Under the pieces are notes generated by a model. That model was not told the origin of the DNA. It did no database searches and was given only the letters and a program-made list of their open reading frames with translations. From assembly GCA_025463365.1 (NCBI GenBank), contig JAOBWM010000073.1, positions 1-33,650 of the forward strand: a DNA stretch of 33,650 bases, written 5' to 3'. The position numbers and the translations under genes are program-made. Numbering within the stretch: the first letter of the stretch is position 1; every line of letters begins with the position of its first letter. Source of the DNA: Acidimicrobiales bacterium (lineage in GTDB: Bacteria > Actinomycetota > Acidimicrobiia > Acidimicrobiales > Iamiaceae). Below are positions 6,692-12,874 of this stretch, piece after piece.

Positions 6692-7759
6692 TTGGCCTCG
6701 GCCGTCGACTGGTCCCTCGCCGAGAAGGTGGCGGTGCGCGCCGCGGGGCGTGAGCCCTTCGCCGAGTCCTACCACTACGCCTCGCTGACCTCGGACTTCG
6801 AGGAGCTCACGAGGCTCGCCGAGGAACAGGTCGCGCTCGCCACCGGGTTGCGCAGCCTCACCGGCCCCGCCCGCGCCCGCGTCACGGATCGCCAGGGCTG
6901 GGTGCGGGCCAACATCGCCTCGTTCCAGCGCCTGTTGCGGCCGATCACCGACCGCCTCGAGGAGACGATCTCGGCGAGCCCCTTCGCGCCGGTCGCGAGC
7001 CGCGTCGCCGGCGCCGAGGTCGGCATGGTCCTGGGCTGGATGTCGAGCCGGGTCCTCGGCCAGTACGACCTCCTCGTCGTGGAGGACGAGCGGCCCGAAG
7101 AGCAGGACATCGTGTACTTCGTCGGCCCGAACATCATCGGGCTCGAGAAGCGCTTCGCGTTCCCCCCTCGTGAGTTCCGGCACTGGCTCGCCCTGCACGA
7201 GGTGACGCACCGGGCCCAGTTCACCGGGATCCCGTGGATGCGCGAGCACTTCCTCTCGCTCGTGCAGGAGACCGTCAAATCCGTCGACCCGGATCCCAAG
7301 CGCTTCCTCGACGCACTCGGCCGTGCCGCCTCAGAGGTGCGCAGCGGCAAGAACCCGCTCGACGACGGGGGCGTGATGGCGATCCTCGCCTCACCGGAGC
7401 AGCGGGTGACACTCGACCAGGTCGCCGGCCTCATGAGCCTGCTCGAGGGGCACGGCGACGTCACGATGGATCGCGCCGGCGCGGACCAGATCCCGAGCTC
7501 GGTCCGCTTCGGCCAGGTGCTGCGCCAGCGCCGCGAGCAGGGCAACCCGGCGGCCAAGTTCCTGCAGAAGCTCATCGGCCTCGAAGCCAAGATGAAGCAG
7601 TACGAGCAGGGCGAGCGCTTCATCGAAGCCGTCGAGCGCGAGGGCGGCACCGACCTCCTGGATCAGGCGTGGGTGGAGCCGGGCAACCTCCCCACCATCG
7701 CCGAGATCCGTGACCCCGAGGCGTGGATCGCCCGGGTCCTGCCCACCGTCGCCGCCTGA
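6692..7759 (+). CDS. Zinc-dependent metalloprotease-like protein, DUF2342 family
   Basis: The TTG at 6692 gives 355 residues and begins LASAVDWSLAEKVAVRAAGR, where the VDW segment matches the usual start of this actinobacterial family. GGAG lies about 9 nt upstream. The zinc-protease motif His169-Glu170-x-x-His173 sits in HWLALHEVTHRAQF. A later LMSLLEGHGDVTMDR block (Glu252) is the other family signature and may supply a third ligand. There is no signal peptide, so a cytoplasmic location is expected. Relatives carry labels such as coenzyme F420 biosynthesis-associated protein, but I know of no established substrate. The mycobacterial counterpart (Rv3626c) also lies next to tilS and hpt, so the neighbourhood is conserved. 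tilS follows after 14 bp. Confidence 0.82.
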   Translation: MASAVDWSLAEKVAVRAAGREPFAESYHYASLTSDFEELTRLAEEQVALATGLRSLTGPARARVTDRQGWVRANIASFQRLLRPITDRLEETISASPFAPVASRVAGAEVGMVLGWMSSRVLGQYDLLVVEDERPEEQDIVYFVGPNIIGLEKRFAFPPREFRHWLALHEVTHRAQFTGIPWMREHFLSLVQETVKSVDPDPKRFLDALGRAASEVRSGKNPLDDGGVMAILASPEQRVTLDQVAGLMSLLEGHGDVTMDRAGADQIPSSVRFGQVLRQRREQGNPAAKFLQKLIGLEAKMKQYEQGERFIEAVEREGGTDLLDQAWVEPGNLPTIAEIRDPEAWIARVLPTVAA

Positions 7760-7773
7760 CGCGCCGAGCCGGC

Positions 7774-8712
7774 ATGGGTGAGCCGATCGACCTCGCCGCC
7801 GGGCCGCCCGCCGCGCTCGTGGCCGATCTGTCGGCGCGGGCCTCGTTCCCGCCGGCCGGCACCGCCGTCACGTGCGCGGTCTCCGGCGGGCCCGATTCCC
7901 TGGCACTGCTCGTGTTGGCGGTGGCCGCCGGCTGCGCGGCCACGGCGGTCCACGTCGACCACGGGTTGCGCCCAGGTTCGGGGGCCGAGGCCGAGGTCGT
8001 CGCCGACGTCGCCGCTCGCCTCGGAGCCGGGTTCCGGGCCGAGCGCGTGCGGGTGGATCCCGGGCCCAACCTGGAAGCGCGCGCCCGGGCCGCGCGGTAC
8101 GGGGTCCTGCCCGCCGAGGCGCTCACCGGACACACCGCGGAGGACCGGGCCGAGACCGTCCTGCTCCACCTCCTGCGCGGCGCCGGGCCTCGCGGGGCGG
8201 TGGGGATCGCCCGCTCCCCCCGGCGCCCGCTGCTCGACCTGCGCCGCGCCGAGACCGAGGGGCTCTGCGAGGCGTTGGGCCTCGAACCGGTGCGCGATCC
8301 GTCGAACCGTGATCCGGCGTTCCGCCGCAACCGGGTCCGCCACGAGGTGCTCCCGCTCCTCACCGACATCGCGGAGCGCGACGTGGTGGCCGTGCTCGTG
8401 CGCCAGGCCGACCTGTTCGCCGACGTCGACGGCCTCGTCGACGAGCTGGCCGCAACGATCGATCCCACCGAGGCTCGGGCGCTGGCCGCCGCCCGCCCGG
8501 TCGTCGCCGGCGCCGCGGTCCGGGCCTGGTTGCTGGCTGAGGGGGTCGGGGACGGCCACCCCGCCGAATTCGCCGCGGTGGCGCGCGTCCTGGCCGTGGC
8601 CCGAGGCGACCACGTGGCCACCGAGGTGGGCGGCGGCTGGCGGGTCGCGCGCTCGCGCGGGCGCCTTGCGCTCACGCCACCAGGCGCGTGGCAGGATGCC
8701 CGCCATGACTGA
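7774..8712 (+). CDS. tilS: tRNA(Ile)-lysidine synthase
   Basis: The 312-residue protein has the N-type ATP pyrophosphatase P-loop SGGPDS at residues 37-42, then [11 protein letters not shown] and [20 protein letters not shown], both typical of TilS. The [20 protein letters not shown] block is the family signature for tRNA recognition. It attaches lysine to C34 of tRNA-Ile(CAU), which changes decoding from Met to Ile; this is an essential cytoplasmic activity. The length matches short actinobacterial TilS proteins that lack the full C-terminal domain. The start ATG lies 14 bp after the metalloprotease gene. The 3' end overlaps hpt by 8 bp, as expected for this conserved gene pair. Confidence 0.92.
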
Positions 8713-10616: not shown

Positions 10617-11435
10617 TTGACGACCCCAGTACCCTGGACACCCGTGTGTCCGCTGGTGATGGGTGTCGTCAACGTGACCCCCGATTCGTTCTCTGACGGG
10701 GGTCGGTTCGTCGACCCCGCAGCGGCGATCGCCCACGGCTTGGCCCTCGTGGACGAAGGGGCGGCGATCGTCGACATCGGCGGAGAATCGAGCCGTCCGG
10801 GTGCCGATCCCGTCGAGCTCGACATCGAACTGGCTCGCGTCGTGCCCGTGGTGGCCGCGCTGGCCCCGCACGTCCGGGTCTCGGTCGACACGGCCAAGCC
10901 CGAGGTCGCCCACGCCGCGGTCGATGCCGGGGCCACGTTGATCAACGACATCACGGCATCGCTCGCGCGCGTGGCCGCCGAGCGTGAGGTCGGATGGGTC
11001 GCGATGCACATGCAGGGCGAGCCCCGCTCGATGCAGCTGCGTCCCAGCTACGACGACGTCGTCGCCGAGGTGCAGGCGTTCCTGGTCCGTCGGGCCGGTG
11101 CGGCCCGAGATGGCGGTGTCGCCGAGGTCTGGGTGGACCCGGGCATCGGGTTCGGGAAGACGGCGGCCCACAACTGGGCGCTGCTCGCCGGGCTCGATCG
11201 CCTGGCTGCCGCCGGGTGGCCGCTGGTCGTCGGCACCAGCCGCAAGGCGTTCCTCGGCAAGCTCCTCGGTGAGGCCGACGGTGCCGACGGGCCGACCCCG
11301 GTCACCGATCGCCTCGAAGCTTCTGTCGCCACCGCCGTGTGGGCTGCCCGCCAGGGCGCCGCCATGGTGCGCGTGCACGACGTCGCCGCCACGGTCGCCG
11401 CCTTCCGCGGCATGGCTGTCGAGGATGCGGCATGA
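10617..11435 (+). CDS. folP: Dihydropteroate synthase
   Basis: The TTG at 10617 is favoured because GGAG lies 5 nt upstream; an in-frame GTG at 10644 is an alternative. The 272-residue protein has all DHPS blocks: VMGVVNVTPDSFSDGG, IVDIGGESSRPGA, VRVSVDT, LINDITA, AMHMQGEP, WVDPGIGFGKT, VGTSRKAFLG and MVRVHDV. It condenses 6-hydroxymethyl-7,8-dihydropterin diphosphate with p-aminobenzoate to dihydropteroate in the cytoplasm and is the sulfonamide target in known homologues. No motif is degenerate, so it should be active. It is followed after 64 bp by the phosphatase-like gene and then folB. Confidence 0.95.
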   Translation: MTTPVPWTPVCPLVMGVVNVTPDSFSDGGRFVDPAAAIAHGLALVDEGAAIVDIGGESSRPGADPVELDIELARVVPVVAALAPHVRVSVDTAKPEVAHAAVDAGATLINDITASLARVAAEREVGWVAMHMQGEPRSMQLRPSYDDVVAEVQAFLVRRAGAARDGGVAEVWVDPGIGFGKTAAHNWALLAGLDRLAAAGWPLVVGTSRKAFLGKLLGEADGADGPTPVTDRLEASVATAVWAARQGAAMVRVHDVAATVAAFRGMAVEDAA

Positions 11436-11499
11436 CGGATCTGAATGGATCGACCCGCCGGGTCGACCGAGACAACAGGGAAACCAGGGAGGCCAACCG

Positions 11500-12015
11500 G
11501 TGGCCGTGAAGGGCAAGTGGGCGCAGGGCATCGAACCGCGCAACTTCCGATGGGTGATGAAGGACTCGCTCGCCGTGTGCGAGCGGCCGGGGGGCTATGG
11601 CGCGAACCACCGCCGGGTCCGCCGCCAAGAGGAGATCATCTGGGTGCGCGAGCAGGGCTTCTCGCCGGTGATCTCGATCATCCCGTCCCCTGCGAACCTC
11701 CACAACTACGACGAGCTGGGCGTCACCTGGCAGCACCGGCCGTTCGGGAACCACGACGACACGGCCACCTACCTGACCGCGTTCTATCCCGAGCTCCGCG
11801 ACCTCCTGGCCGGCGGGTCGAAGGTCCTCATCCACGGTGAGGAGCTCGGCGACCGTCTGTCGGGCACCATCGCCGGCTACCTGCTGTGGTCCGGCCTGCT
11901 CCCGACGGGCCCCAAGGCGATCTCGCTCACCGAGCGCCTGCTCCAACGCCAGCTCGGCCCGCCCGGGCGTGAGCTCGTCACGGTCGCCCTCGAGATGCCG
12001 CGAGCGTCGTCCTGA
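11500..12015 (+). CDS. Tyrosine/dual-specificity phosphatase-like protein lacking the catalytic cysteine
   Basis: The GTG at 11500 has AGGGAGG 7 nt upstream and gives 171 residues. The region KVLIHGEELGDRLSGTIAGY aligns in spacing with the HCx5R active-site loop and following helix of Cys-dependent phosphatases. However, the Cys position is Gly113, while His112 and Arg119 and the Ser-Gly-Thr after the loop are kept. A candidate general-acid loop is FGNHDD (Asp86/Asp87). ISIIPSPANLHNYDELGVTW would be the preceding strand and loop. Without cysteine, phosphatase chemistry should not occur, so it may bind a phosphorylated ligand or partner instead. It is in line between folP and folB, and its TGA overlaps the apparent folB start (CTGA). 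I do not recognise a named family, and the fold call is inference from motif spacing. Confidence 0.6.
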   Translation: MAVKGKWAQGIEPRNFRWVMKDSLAVCERPGGYGANHRRVRRQEEIIWVREQGFSPVISIIPSPANLHNYDELGVTWQHRPFGNHDDTATYLTAFYPELRDLLAGGSKVLIHGEELGDRLSGTIAGYLLWSGLLPTGPKAISLTERLLQRQLGPPGRELVTVALEMPRASS

Positions 12016-12401
12016 CCGATCCGGCGGCGTCCGACCGCATCGAGCTGCGCGGCCTGCGTGTCGTGGGGATCTGTGGAGCGCTCCCCGAGGAGCGCGAGCG
12101 GGCCCAGCCGCTCGAGGTCGATCTCGACGTGGACGCCGACCTCGCGCCCAGCGGTGCGTCCGACGCCCTCGTCGACACGATCGACTACGGGGCGATCTGC
12201 GACGCGGTCGCCGGCACGGTCGCCGGCGGCTCGCCGCAGCTGCTCGAGCACCTGGCCGCGGCGATCGCCGATGCCGTGCTCGCCGTCGATGGCCGGGCCA
12301 CCGCTGTGACCGTCTCGGTCCGCAAGCTCCGACCCCCGGTTCCGCACGCCCTGGCCACCTCGGGCGTGCGCATCCGGCGCGTCGCCGCGACCCCCTCGTG
12401 A
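12012..12401 (+). CDS. folB: Dihydroneopterin aldolase
   Basis: The protein contains RIELRGLRVVGICGALPEER, IDYGAICDAV, LLEHLAAAIADAV and VRKLRPPVP, which are the conserved blocks of FolB, with catalytic candidates Glu79 and Lys105 (129 residues, numbered from 12012). It converts dihydroneopterin to 6-hydroxymethyldihydropterin and glycolaldehyde. Between the upstream in-frame stop at 11970-11972 and the GTG at 12063 there is no ATG, GTG or TTG. The GTG would remove the first beta strand that all FolB proteins have. The best remaining start is CTG at 12012, overlapping the upstream TGA as CTGA. Its 3' end overlaps folK by four bases. The enzyme identity is firm; the start is tentative. Confidence 0.88.
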   Translation: MTDPAASDRIELRGLRVVGICGALPEERERAQPLEVDLDVDADLAPSGASDALVDTIDYGAICDAVAGTVAGGSPQLLEHLAAAIADAVLAVDGRATAVTVSVRKLRPPVPHALATSGVRIRRVAATPS

Positions 12402-12874
12402 CCCGGGCGTTCTTGTCGCTCGGGTCGAACCTGGGCGATCGGCGGCAGTTCCTGTCCGAGGCGGTCGGATCCCTCGGGACCTCGGTCCGGGCCGTGTCCC
12501 CGGTGTACGAGACCGATCCGATCGGCGGTCCGGACCAGGGGCGCTTCTTGAACCTCGTCGTGGAGCTCGACACGGACCTCTCGCCGCGCGCGCTGCTCGC
12601 GGTGTGCCACCGGCTCGAGTCGGGTGCGCAACGGGTGCGGATCGAGCGATGGGGACCTCGGACGCTCGACGTCGACATCGTCTGGATCGACGGGGTCACG
12701 GTCGCGGACCCTGACCTCCAGATCCCGCACCCGCGCTGGCGCGAGCGCCTCTTCGTCCTCGCACCGCTCCGAGACCTCGCCCCGGACCTCGTCGACCAGG
12801 ACACGTTCGATCGGGCCCAGGGCCACGTCGTCGAGGCCGGGTACCTCGACGGCTGGCAGCCCGAGGAGCCCTGA
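12398..12874 (+). CDS. folK: 2-amino-4-hydroxy-6-hydroxymethyldihydropteridine pyrophosphokinase
   Basis: The GTG at 12398 overlaps the folB stop (GTGA) and gives 158 residues starting VTRAFLSLGSNLGDRRQFL. The HPPK signature RWGPRTLDVDIVWIDG provides the two magnesium-binding Asp residues, and SPVYETDPIGGPDQGRFLN is the pterin- and ATP-site segment. PHPRWRERLFVLAPLRDLAP closes the domain. It pyrophosphorylates 6-hydroxymethyldihydropterin to make the FolP substrate. The length and all motifs are normal. The DUF2520 gene starts 4 bp after its stop. The DUF3180-type gene that separates folK from the DUF2520 gene in mycobacteria is missing here. Confidence 0.95.
   Translation: MTRAFLSLGSNLGDRRQFLSEAVGSLGTSVRAVSPVYETDPIGGPDQGRFLNLVVELDTDLSPRALLAVCHRLESGAQRVRIERWGPRTLDVDIVWIDGVTVADPDLQIPHPRWRERLFVLAPLRDLAPDLVDQDTFDRAQGHVVEAGYLDGWQPEEP

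Follow-up and report, generated by a model that had tools for sequence, protein, structure and literature searches.

A predicted phosphatase-fold protein without the catalytic cysteine is kept by nearly all sampled Acidimicrobiia, with or without folate synthesis genes

In the folate gene block of an Acidimicrobiales bacterium, a small gene, here called X, lies between folP and folB and encodes a phosphatase-like protein with a glycine in the place of the catalytic cysteine. What does such a protein do, and does it belong to folate synthesis? The window analysed is the whole stretch of 33,650 nucleotides of contig JAOBWM010000073.1 (assembly GCA_025463365.1), and its features are collected in Table 1. 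A genome search gave one match for X in its own genome. A sequence-only reading of the window had described the gene at 11500-12015, a motif with the exact spacing of HCx5R and glycine at position 113, and a strong ribosome-binding site typical of an expressed gene. These points were confirmed; the open reading frame has a GTG start and encodes 171 aa. The same reading had placed X between folP and folB with overlapping ends. The placement was correct, but on the folP side the ends are separated: folP stops at 11433-11435 and a gap of 64 nt precedes the start of X. On the other side, the ends overlap only if folB starts at CTG 12012. The folB frame of the window contains no ATG, GTG or TTG before 12063, and the start is probably this non-standard CTG, which would overlap the stop codon of X as CTGA. 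In the record of Aquihabitans sp. G128 (locus L025), TTGA is found at the matching site.

Table 1. Features of gene X and its neighbourhood in the window
Feature	Position	Strand	Basis
tilS, start of the block	7723..8712	+	Served as tblastn query; domains read in its match in L190
folP, dihydropteroate synthase, upstream of X	10617..11435	+	PF00809 E 1.7e-75; TIGR01496 E 3.7e-86
Ribosome-binding site of X, GGAGG	11488..11492	+	7 nt before GTG 11500; read from sequence
X, phosphatase-fold protein (predicted fold), 171 aa	11500..12015	+	ORF with GTG start; predicted fold; family search
X codons 28-49: family signature, the conserved loop ERxGGx4HRx[VI]RRxEE running into the first long helix	11581..11646	+	Alignment, 149 sequences
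X codons 112-119, HGEELGDR, former P-loop (HCx5R position); conserved pattern Hx[DE]x3[DE]	11833..11856	+	Alignment, 149 sequences
X codon 157, Arg, C-terminal element	11968..11970	+	Arg in 147/149
folB, dihydroneopterin aldolase, downstream of X	12012..12401	+	PF02152 E 1.9e-26 (scanned from 12063); TIGR00525 E 3e-21
folK, HPPK, neighbour	12398..12874	+	PF01288 E 7.6e-38

The structure of X was predicted with AlphaFold2 on an alignment of 50 sequences, which resulted in a model with a mean pLDDT of 90.2 and a pTM of 0.87. When this model was searched with Foldseek, VHZ/DUSP23, KAP and Cdc14 were among the best PDB matches. A second structure aligner superposed X on DUSP23 (2img) over 145 residues with a Z score of 18.2 and an rmsd of 2.1. 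The homologue from G178, a genome without a match for FolE, FolB or FolK, was modelled as well and matched DUSP23 over 144 residues (Z 17.9, rmsd 2.3). The least confident inner stretch of the X model was the conserved loop (block 31-40, mean pLDDT 62); block 51-60 of the G178 homologue model had a pLDDT of 86. The predicted models strongly indicate that X has the cysteine-phosphatase fold of the dual-specificity type (DSP), as had been supposed from the sequence.

The profile searches gave no clear family for X. The window protein scored over no curated cut-off of Pfam or NCBIfam. Among 50 family members, weak Pfam matches were obtained to PF22785 in 10 (best E 0.031), to PF05706 in 6 (0.0055) and to PF00782 in 6 (0.073), and the best NCBIfam match of 32 members had an E-value of 0.065. 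One homologue from outside the class matched PF22785 (E 0.00029) and PF22784 (E 0.026), both below the Pfam cut-off, and a second one gave no match. PAS_3 was matched in 15 of the 50 (best E 0.0096), which does not agree with the fold predicted for X; these matches were taken as chance, as were weak ones to LisH and scattered ones in NCBIfam. The best sequence relative with a structure was the bacterial dual-specificity phosphatase 25xa, with a profile E-value of 3.6e-7.

The former catalytic site was analysed in 149 distinct homologues of the class, which remained from 210 aligned matches when exact duplicates and class fragments shorter than 140 residues were removed; five sequences from family f74, outside the class, were kept apart. 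The sequence-only reading had proposed to check whether Gly113 is conserved, and it is not. Position 113 is filled by 15 different residues: glycine in 40 of the 149, alanine and arginine in 24 each, histidine and lysine in 13 each, glutamine in 10, asparagine in 8 and serine in 5, followed by glutamate (3), cysteine, aspartate and methionine (2 each) and leucine, valine and isoleucine (1 each). Arg119 is present in 103 of the 149 and missing in 46. Cysteine at 113 together with Arg119 occurred in none of the 149, so the examined family is without the Cys/Arg pair and the glycine of the window is one of many fillings. The suggestion that His and Arg are kept to bind phosphate was weakened. The histidine stands in all sequences and the loop has retained two acidic positions, but the arginine is often lost; in the 103 members that have it, the old loop may still bind phosphate. 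In the putative region of the general-acid aspartate, after HxP at about 82-90, acidic residues are frequent in the sequence alignment but variable between members.

A second set of residues was found to be almost fixed. P13, W18, G31, G32, R38, R41, E45, W48 and H112 are invariant in all 149 homologues, R29, H37 and R42 are present in 148, and R157 in 147. The nine residues R29, G31, G32, H37, R38, R41, R42, E45 and W48 occur jointly in 147/149, and H112 with acidic residues at 114 and 118 in 143/149. R157 lies in the C-terminal element, presumably at the site of the Q-loop of active phosphatases. The five divergent homologues of f74 also have much of the loop motif: W18, E28, R29, G31, H37, R38, R42, W48 and H112 are present in all five, as are the two acidic residues, and R41 in four. 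These five have kept the cysteine and carry a tryptophan at the position of the arginine (motif HCDxxxEW). Taken together, the alignment strongly indicates that a different residue set, consisting of ERxGGx4HRx[VI]RRxEE, Hx[DE]x3[DE] and Arg157, is under strong selection. That it is the charged residues that are kept would point to a ligand site and not simply to upkeep of the fold. Of the active Cys-based dual-specificity phosphatases X has the PTP/DSP fold, in two predicted models, and not the HCx5R motif; with pseudophosphatases of the STYX kind it shares a phosphatase fold with a missing catalytic residue, as judged from predicted fold and alignment. As a side observation, the copy at L153, from a genome of about 1.1 Mb (G028), has a cysteine at the position of R29 and a proline at that of H37.

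The distribution of X was determined in an even sample of 395 genomes of the class Acidimicrobiia, of which 268 were good (at least 90% completeness, at most 5% contamination). X was present in 362 of the 395 and in 256 of the 268 good genomes. One match per genome was listed except for G297, which has two. The copy of Aquihabitans sp. G128, a member of the class, is 90% identical to that of the window. In a sample of the phylum, X was detected in 42 of 396 genomes, of which 37 belong to the class and 5 to family f74; one further f74 genome, G429, gave no X match. X is missing from 12 good genomes of the class: eight of family f3, G365, G051, G121 and one more. In G051 and G121 the DHPS match lies at a contig end, so that X may be missing there through a gap in the assembly. 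Family f3 lacks X in all eight sampled genomes. In these eight and in G365 (9/9) the folP, folB and folK matches are close together, and in the stretches around them X was not found at E-values up to 1; the f3 genomes without X also have FolE. X is therefore dispensable, as f3 and G365 live without it. X is a family without a clear Pfam or NCBIfam home that is near-universal in the Acidimicrobiia and single-copy as a rule.

The sequence-only reading had proposed that X acts in or regulates pterin metabolism, for example at the dephosphorylation of dihydroneopterin triphosphate. FolB was found in 340 and FolE in 329 of the 395 class genomes. All 20 FolB-less genomes listed (of 55), each at least 92% complete, have X. 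HPPK was then followed up in 29 genomes, these 20 and 9 without FolE; among the genomes listed were 20 of the 55 without FolB and 20 of the 66 without FolE. HPPK was missing in 14 of the 29, all of them within the FolB-less 20. Eleven of these 14 also lack FolE: eight were listed as FolE-less, and G377, G387 and G395 are absent among the FolE matches listed. In 13 of the 14, Pterin_bind was matched only in frames of more than 1,100 aa, which by their length would be methionine synthases, or weakly in frames of 302-562 aa (E 9.2e-27 to 8.9e-30). The remaining genome, G316, gave a stronger DHPS match (E 5.7e-63).

Ten X-bearing genomes thus had neither FolE, FolB, FolK nor a strong stand-alone FolP match, and one of them, G178, is a single contig that is 99% complete. 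Since X is kept in these ten genomes, the folate reading fails. X does not show the presence and loss together with the pathway that would be expected of a folate biosynthesis protein: it is kept without FolE, FolB and FolK and is missing in f3 genomes that have FolE, FolB, FolK and FolP, so it is neither needed for de novo folate synthesis nor lost with it. Our results strongly indicate that X is independent of this pathway. Incomplete folate pathways in the class have been described before. According to the genome paper on Ilumatobacter coccineum, which is placed in the Acidimicrobiia, the folate pathway of this strain is reportedly missing or incomplete (PMC3910706). The available part of PMC7771536 makes no mention of folate.

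The selection on X was estimated with a simple pairwise Nei-Gojobori method in eight pairs, seven of which were computable (G223-G395 was saturated). In two pairs both genomes lack FolB and HPPK, genes that may have been lost before or after the split of the pair; the dN/dS of X was 0.10 for G031-G054 and 0.075 for G238-G333. The five other pairs had values of 0.06-0.23. In the two pairs that lack FolB and HPPK, X has thus remained under purifying selection.

We then compared the gene order in 124 loci, 69 from contigs of near relatives and 55 picked for divergence or folate-gene loss; the organisms of the two sets may partly coincide. The neighbours of X were called by tblastn alone, by which diverged genes can be missed. 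For the window's tilS query, the match in L190 contains the PP-loop and TilS domains (PF01171, PF09179). Within 400 bp, folP precedes and folB follows X in 67 of the 124 loci, 48 of the 69 and 19 of the 55. The position between folP and folB, whose conservation the sequence-only reading had proposed to check, is therefore common in near relatives but not universal, above all not in the divergent and folate-loss set. In 19 of the 124 loci tilS is upstream of X and none of the searched folate genes follows within 400 bp downstream. The order hpt-X-folB was found in 13, folP-X-folK in 8 (all in the 55-locus set) and other arrangements in 17. The X loci were read in 13 of the 14 genomes without FolB and HPPK, G345 being left out. 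In all 13, tilS is located directly upstream on the same strand at a distance of 18-170 bp, and none of the window's folate proteins was found by tblastn in the stretches of 6.4-10.6 kb.

Most loci fit a common order tilS-hpt-folE-folP-X-folB-folK from which genes would have been removed while X stayed; exceptions with insertions or inversions are few (e.g. L168, L169, L186). The folP-folB position of X looks like inherited gene order. In the lineages of the 67 loci, the flanks could also reflect a functional link.

Several loci had features of their own. In 13 relatives, several of them marine by their titles (L064-L069, L074-L079 and L092), the order is hpt-X-folB, with neither folE nor folP separating hpt from X. 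At L193, L194 and L203 a DUF2510-scramblase-like protein follows tilS-X (PF10708 and PF03803 in L194, the other two judged by eye). HPPK is matched twice in each of five genomes of f31 and f36 (G024, G030, G041, G045 and G049; e.g. L150, L155, L159, L175 and L176), once in folP-X-folK and once beside folB elsewhere. In these genomes, the second HPPK and the GTP cyclohydrolase I matches are in open frames of equal length and in phase, which suggests a FolK-FolE fusion protein. In f74, the neighbours of X (L170-L174) are thioesterase-like, glycosidase-like, sugar-transferase-like or glycosyltransferase-like by eye, and in G488 and G715 folP-folB-folK is located elsewhere than X. These exopolysaccharide-like genes may hint at a function of X, but no neighbour is common to f74 and the class.

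The explanation that we prefer, with a probability of about 0.55, is that X represents a pseudophosphatase family without earlier description, whose rebuilt pocket would bind an anionic ligand or a partner. To judge from the conservation, the Cys-dependent phosphatase chemistry would be absent and X would act by binding. The pocket, which the basic HR-RR loop and the acidic pair would form, is predicted to hold an anionic ligand or partner that may be phosphorylated. This role would be separate from folate and kept where the folate genes are gone. As nearly all sampled members of the class keep X, even some that have lost folate genes, a separate binding role is probable. A wider formulation, which we hold only tentatively, is that the phosphatase fold now carries a remodelled site of a new kind, for catalysis or sensing: the Cys and Arg would have been discarded, the acidic pair and the HRx[VI]RR loop added, and the function kept by nearly the whole class in a protein without a clear Pfam or NCBIfam family.

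The main rival to a binding protein is that X has become an enzyme again, a metal-dependent phosphohydrolase or transferase. A metal would then be bound by His112 and the acidic pair, and phosphate groups would be gripped by the HR-RR loop. The near-fixed H112 with its two acidic residues would fit such a site, as would the basic loop, which is complete in 147 of 149 homologues. However, the metal site is a proposal from the sequence, and we know of no citable earlier case of a metal bound in the P-loop of a PTP/DSP fold. We regard a new enzyme as rather unlikely. A service to tRNA or translation, tied to tilS and with RNA bound by the basic loop, is improbable: it would account for tilS directly upstream of X in 19 loci, including all 13 of the loci examined in genomes that lack FolB and HPPK, and the PTP-fold RNA 5'-phosphatase 1yn9 is among the fold matches of X, but the adjacency results simply from the removal of intervening genes in the common order. 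In addition, f3 has tilS without X in seven of the eight loci read, the eighth starting at a contig end.

For a role in folate or pterin synthesis there remain the folP and folB flanks and the folP-X-folK order in 8 of the 55 loci. Against it stand the 20 FolB-less genomes with X, the further losses of HPPK, FolE and strong stand-alone DHPS among them, the f3 and G365 genomes that keep folP, folB and folK without X, and the purifying selection that persists in pairs without FolB and HPPK. This role is largely refuted and very improbable. That X is a decayed phosphatase or a spurious open reading frame, as the missing catalytic cysteine might suggest, is refuted. The nearly complete presence in good genomes, the low dN/dS in seven of the eight pairs, the confident predicted fold and the 149 homologues, in which Cys113 occurs twice and never with Arg119, all oppose it. 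The sequence-only reading had asked whether close homologues have Cys at this site, which would have marked the window copy as decayed. The relatives keep the gene without the Cys/Arg pair, and the view of an expressed-looking gene for a phosphatase-like protein that lacks the nucleophile was supported.

If X is a pseudophosphatase, it is a near class-wide one with a clean signature, and strains like Aquihabitans sp. G128, whose record contains X, would be open to a test. If the fold was indeed rebuilt into a new site, a phosphatase fold has been repurposed for a function kept by nearly a whole bacterial class. The locus also calls for caution when function is deduced from the neighbourhood, as X lies between folP and folB in more than half of the loci and yet outlives the lost pathway. 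Conserved bacterial pseudophosphatases seem little described: among the titles listed in our literature search there was none on a bacterial pseudophosphatase with a phosphatase fold, and the examples in the available part of one review are human or from other animals (PMC10211241). A class-signature study of the Acidimicrobiia, in the part available, searched for signature proteins with the proteome of Acidimicrobium ferrooxidans as query (PMC5962788). If the f3 genome G037 is A. ferrooxidans, this approach could not have found X.

Compared with known systems, X has weak links to the Tc-R-P / PTP-SAK, CDKN3 and DSPc families of Pfam (PF22785, PF22784, PF05706, PF00782), which are matched weakly in some members and not in X of the window. 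DUSP23 (VHZ; 2img, 4erc) and related small dual-specificity phosphatases have the fold in common with X over most of the chain, but their identity to X in structural alignments is 16-19%, and X is without their HCx5R. The bacterial 25xa, a 'Dual specificity protein phosphatase family protein' in the PDB, shares the N-terminal pattern N-W-V...LA...GG.G with X. At the place where 25xa has HCRAGYGRTG, however, X has HGEELGDRLSG, and the basic loop of X is longer by six positions. A tyrosine-phosphatase-like serine/threonine/tyrosine-interacting protein (2r0b) is also among the fold matches of X (Z 14.6, rmsd 2.5 over 141). According to the available part of the review, pseudophosphatases work through binding, competition or scaffolding, and the activity of STYX was restored by one residue change (PMC10211241). 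As in STYX and other eukaryotic pseudophosphatases with the DSP fold, the nucleophile of X is gone. In the X family, unlike STYX, the arginine is gone as well in 46 of the 149 homologues, and the loop contains acidic residues.
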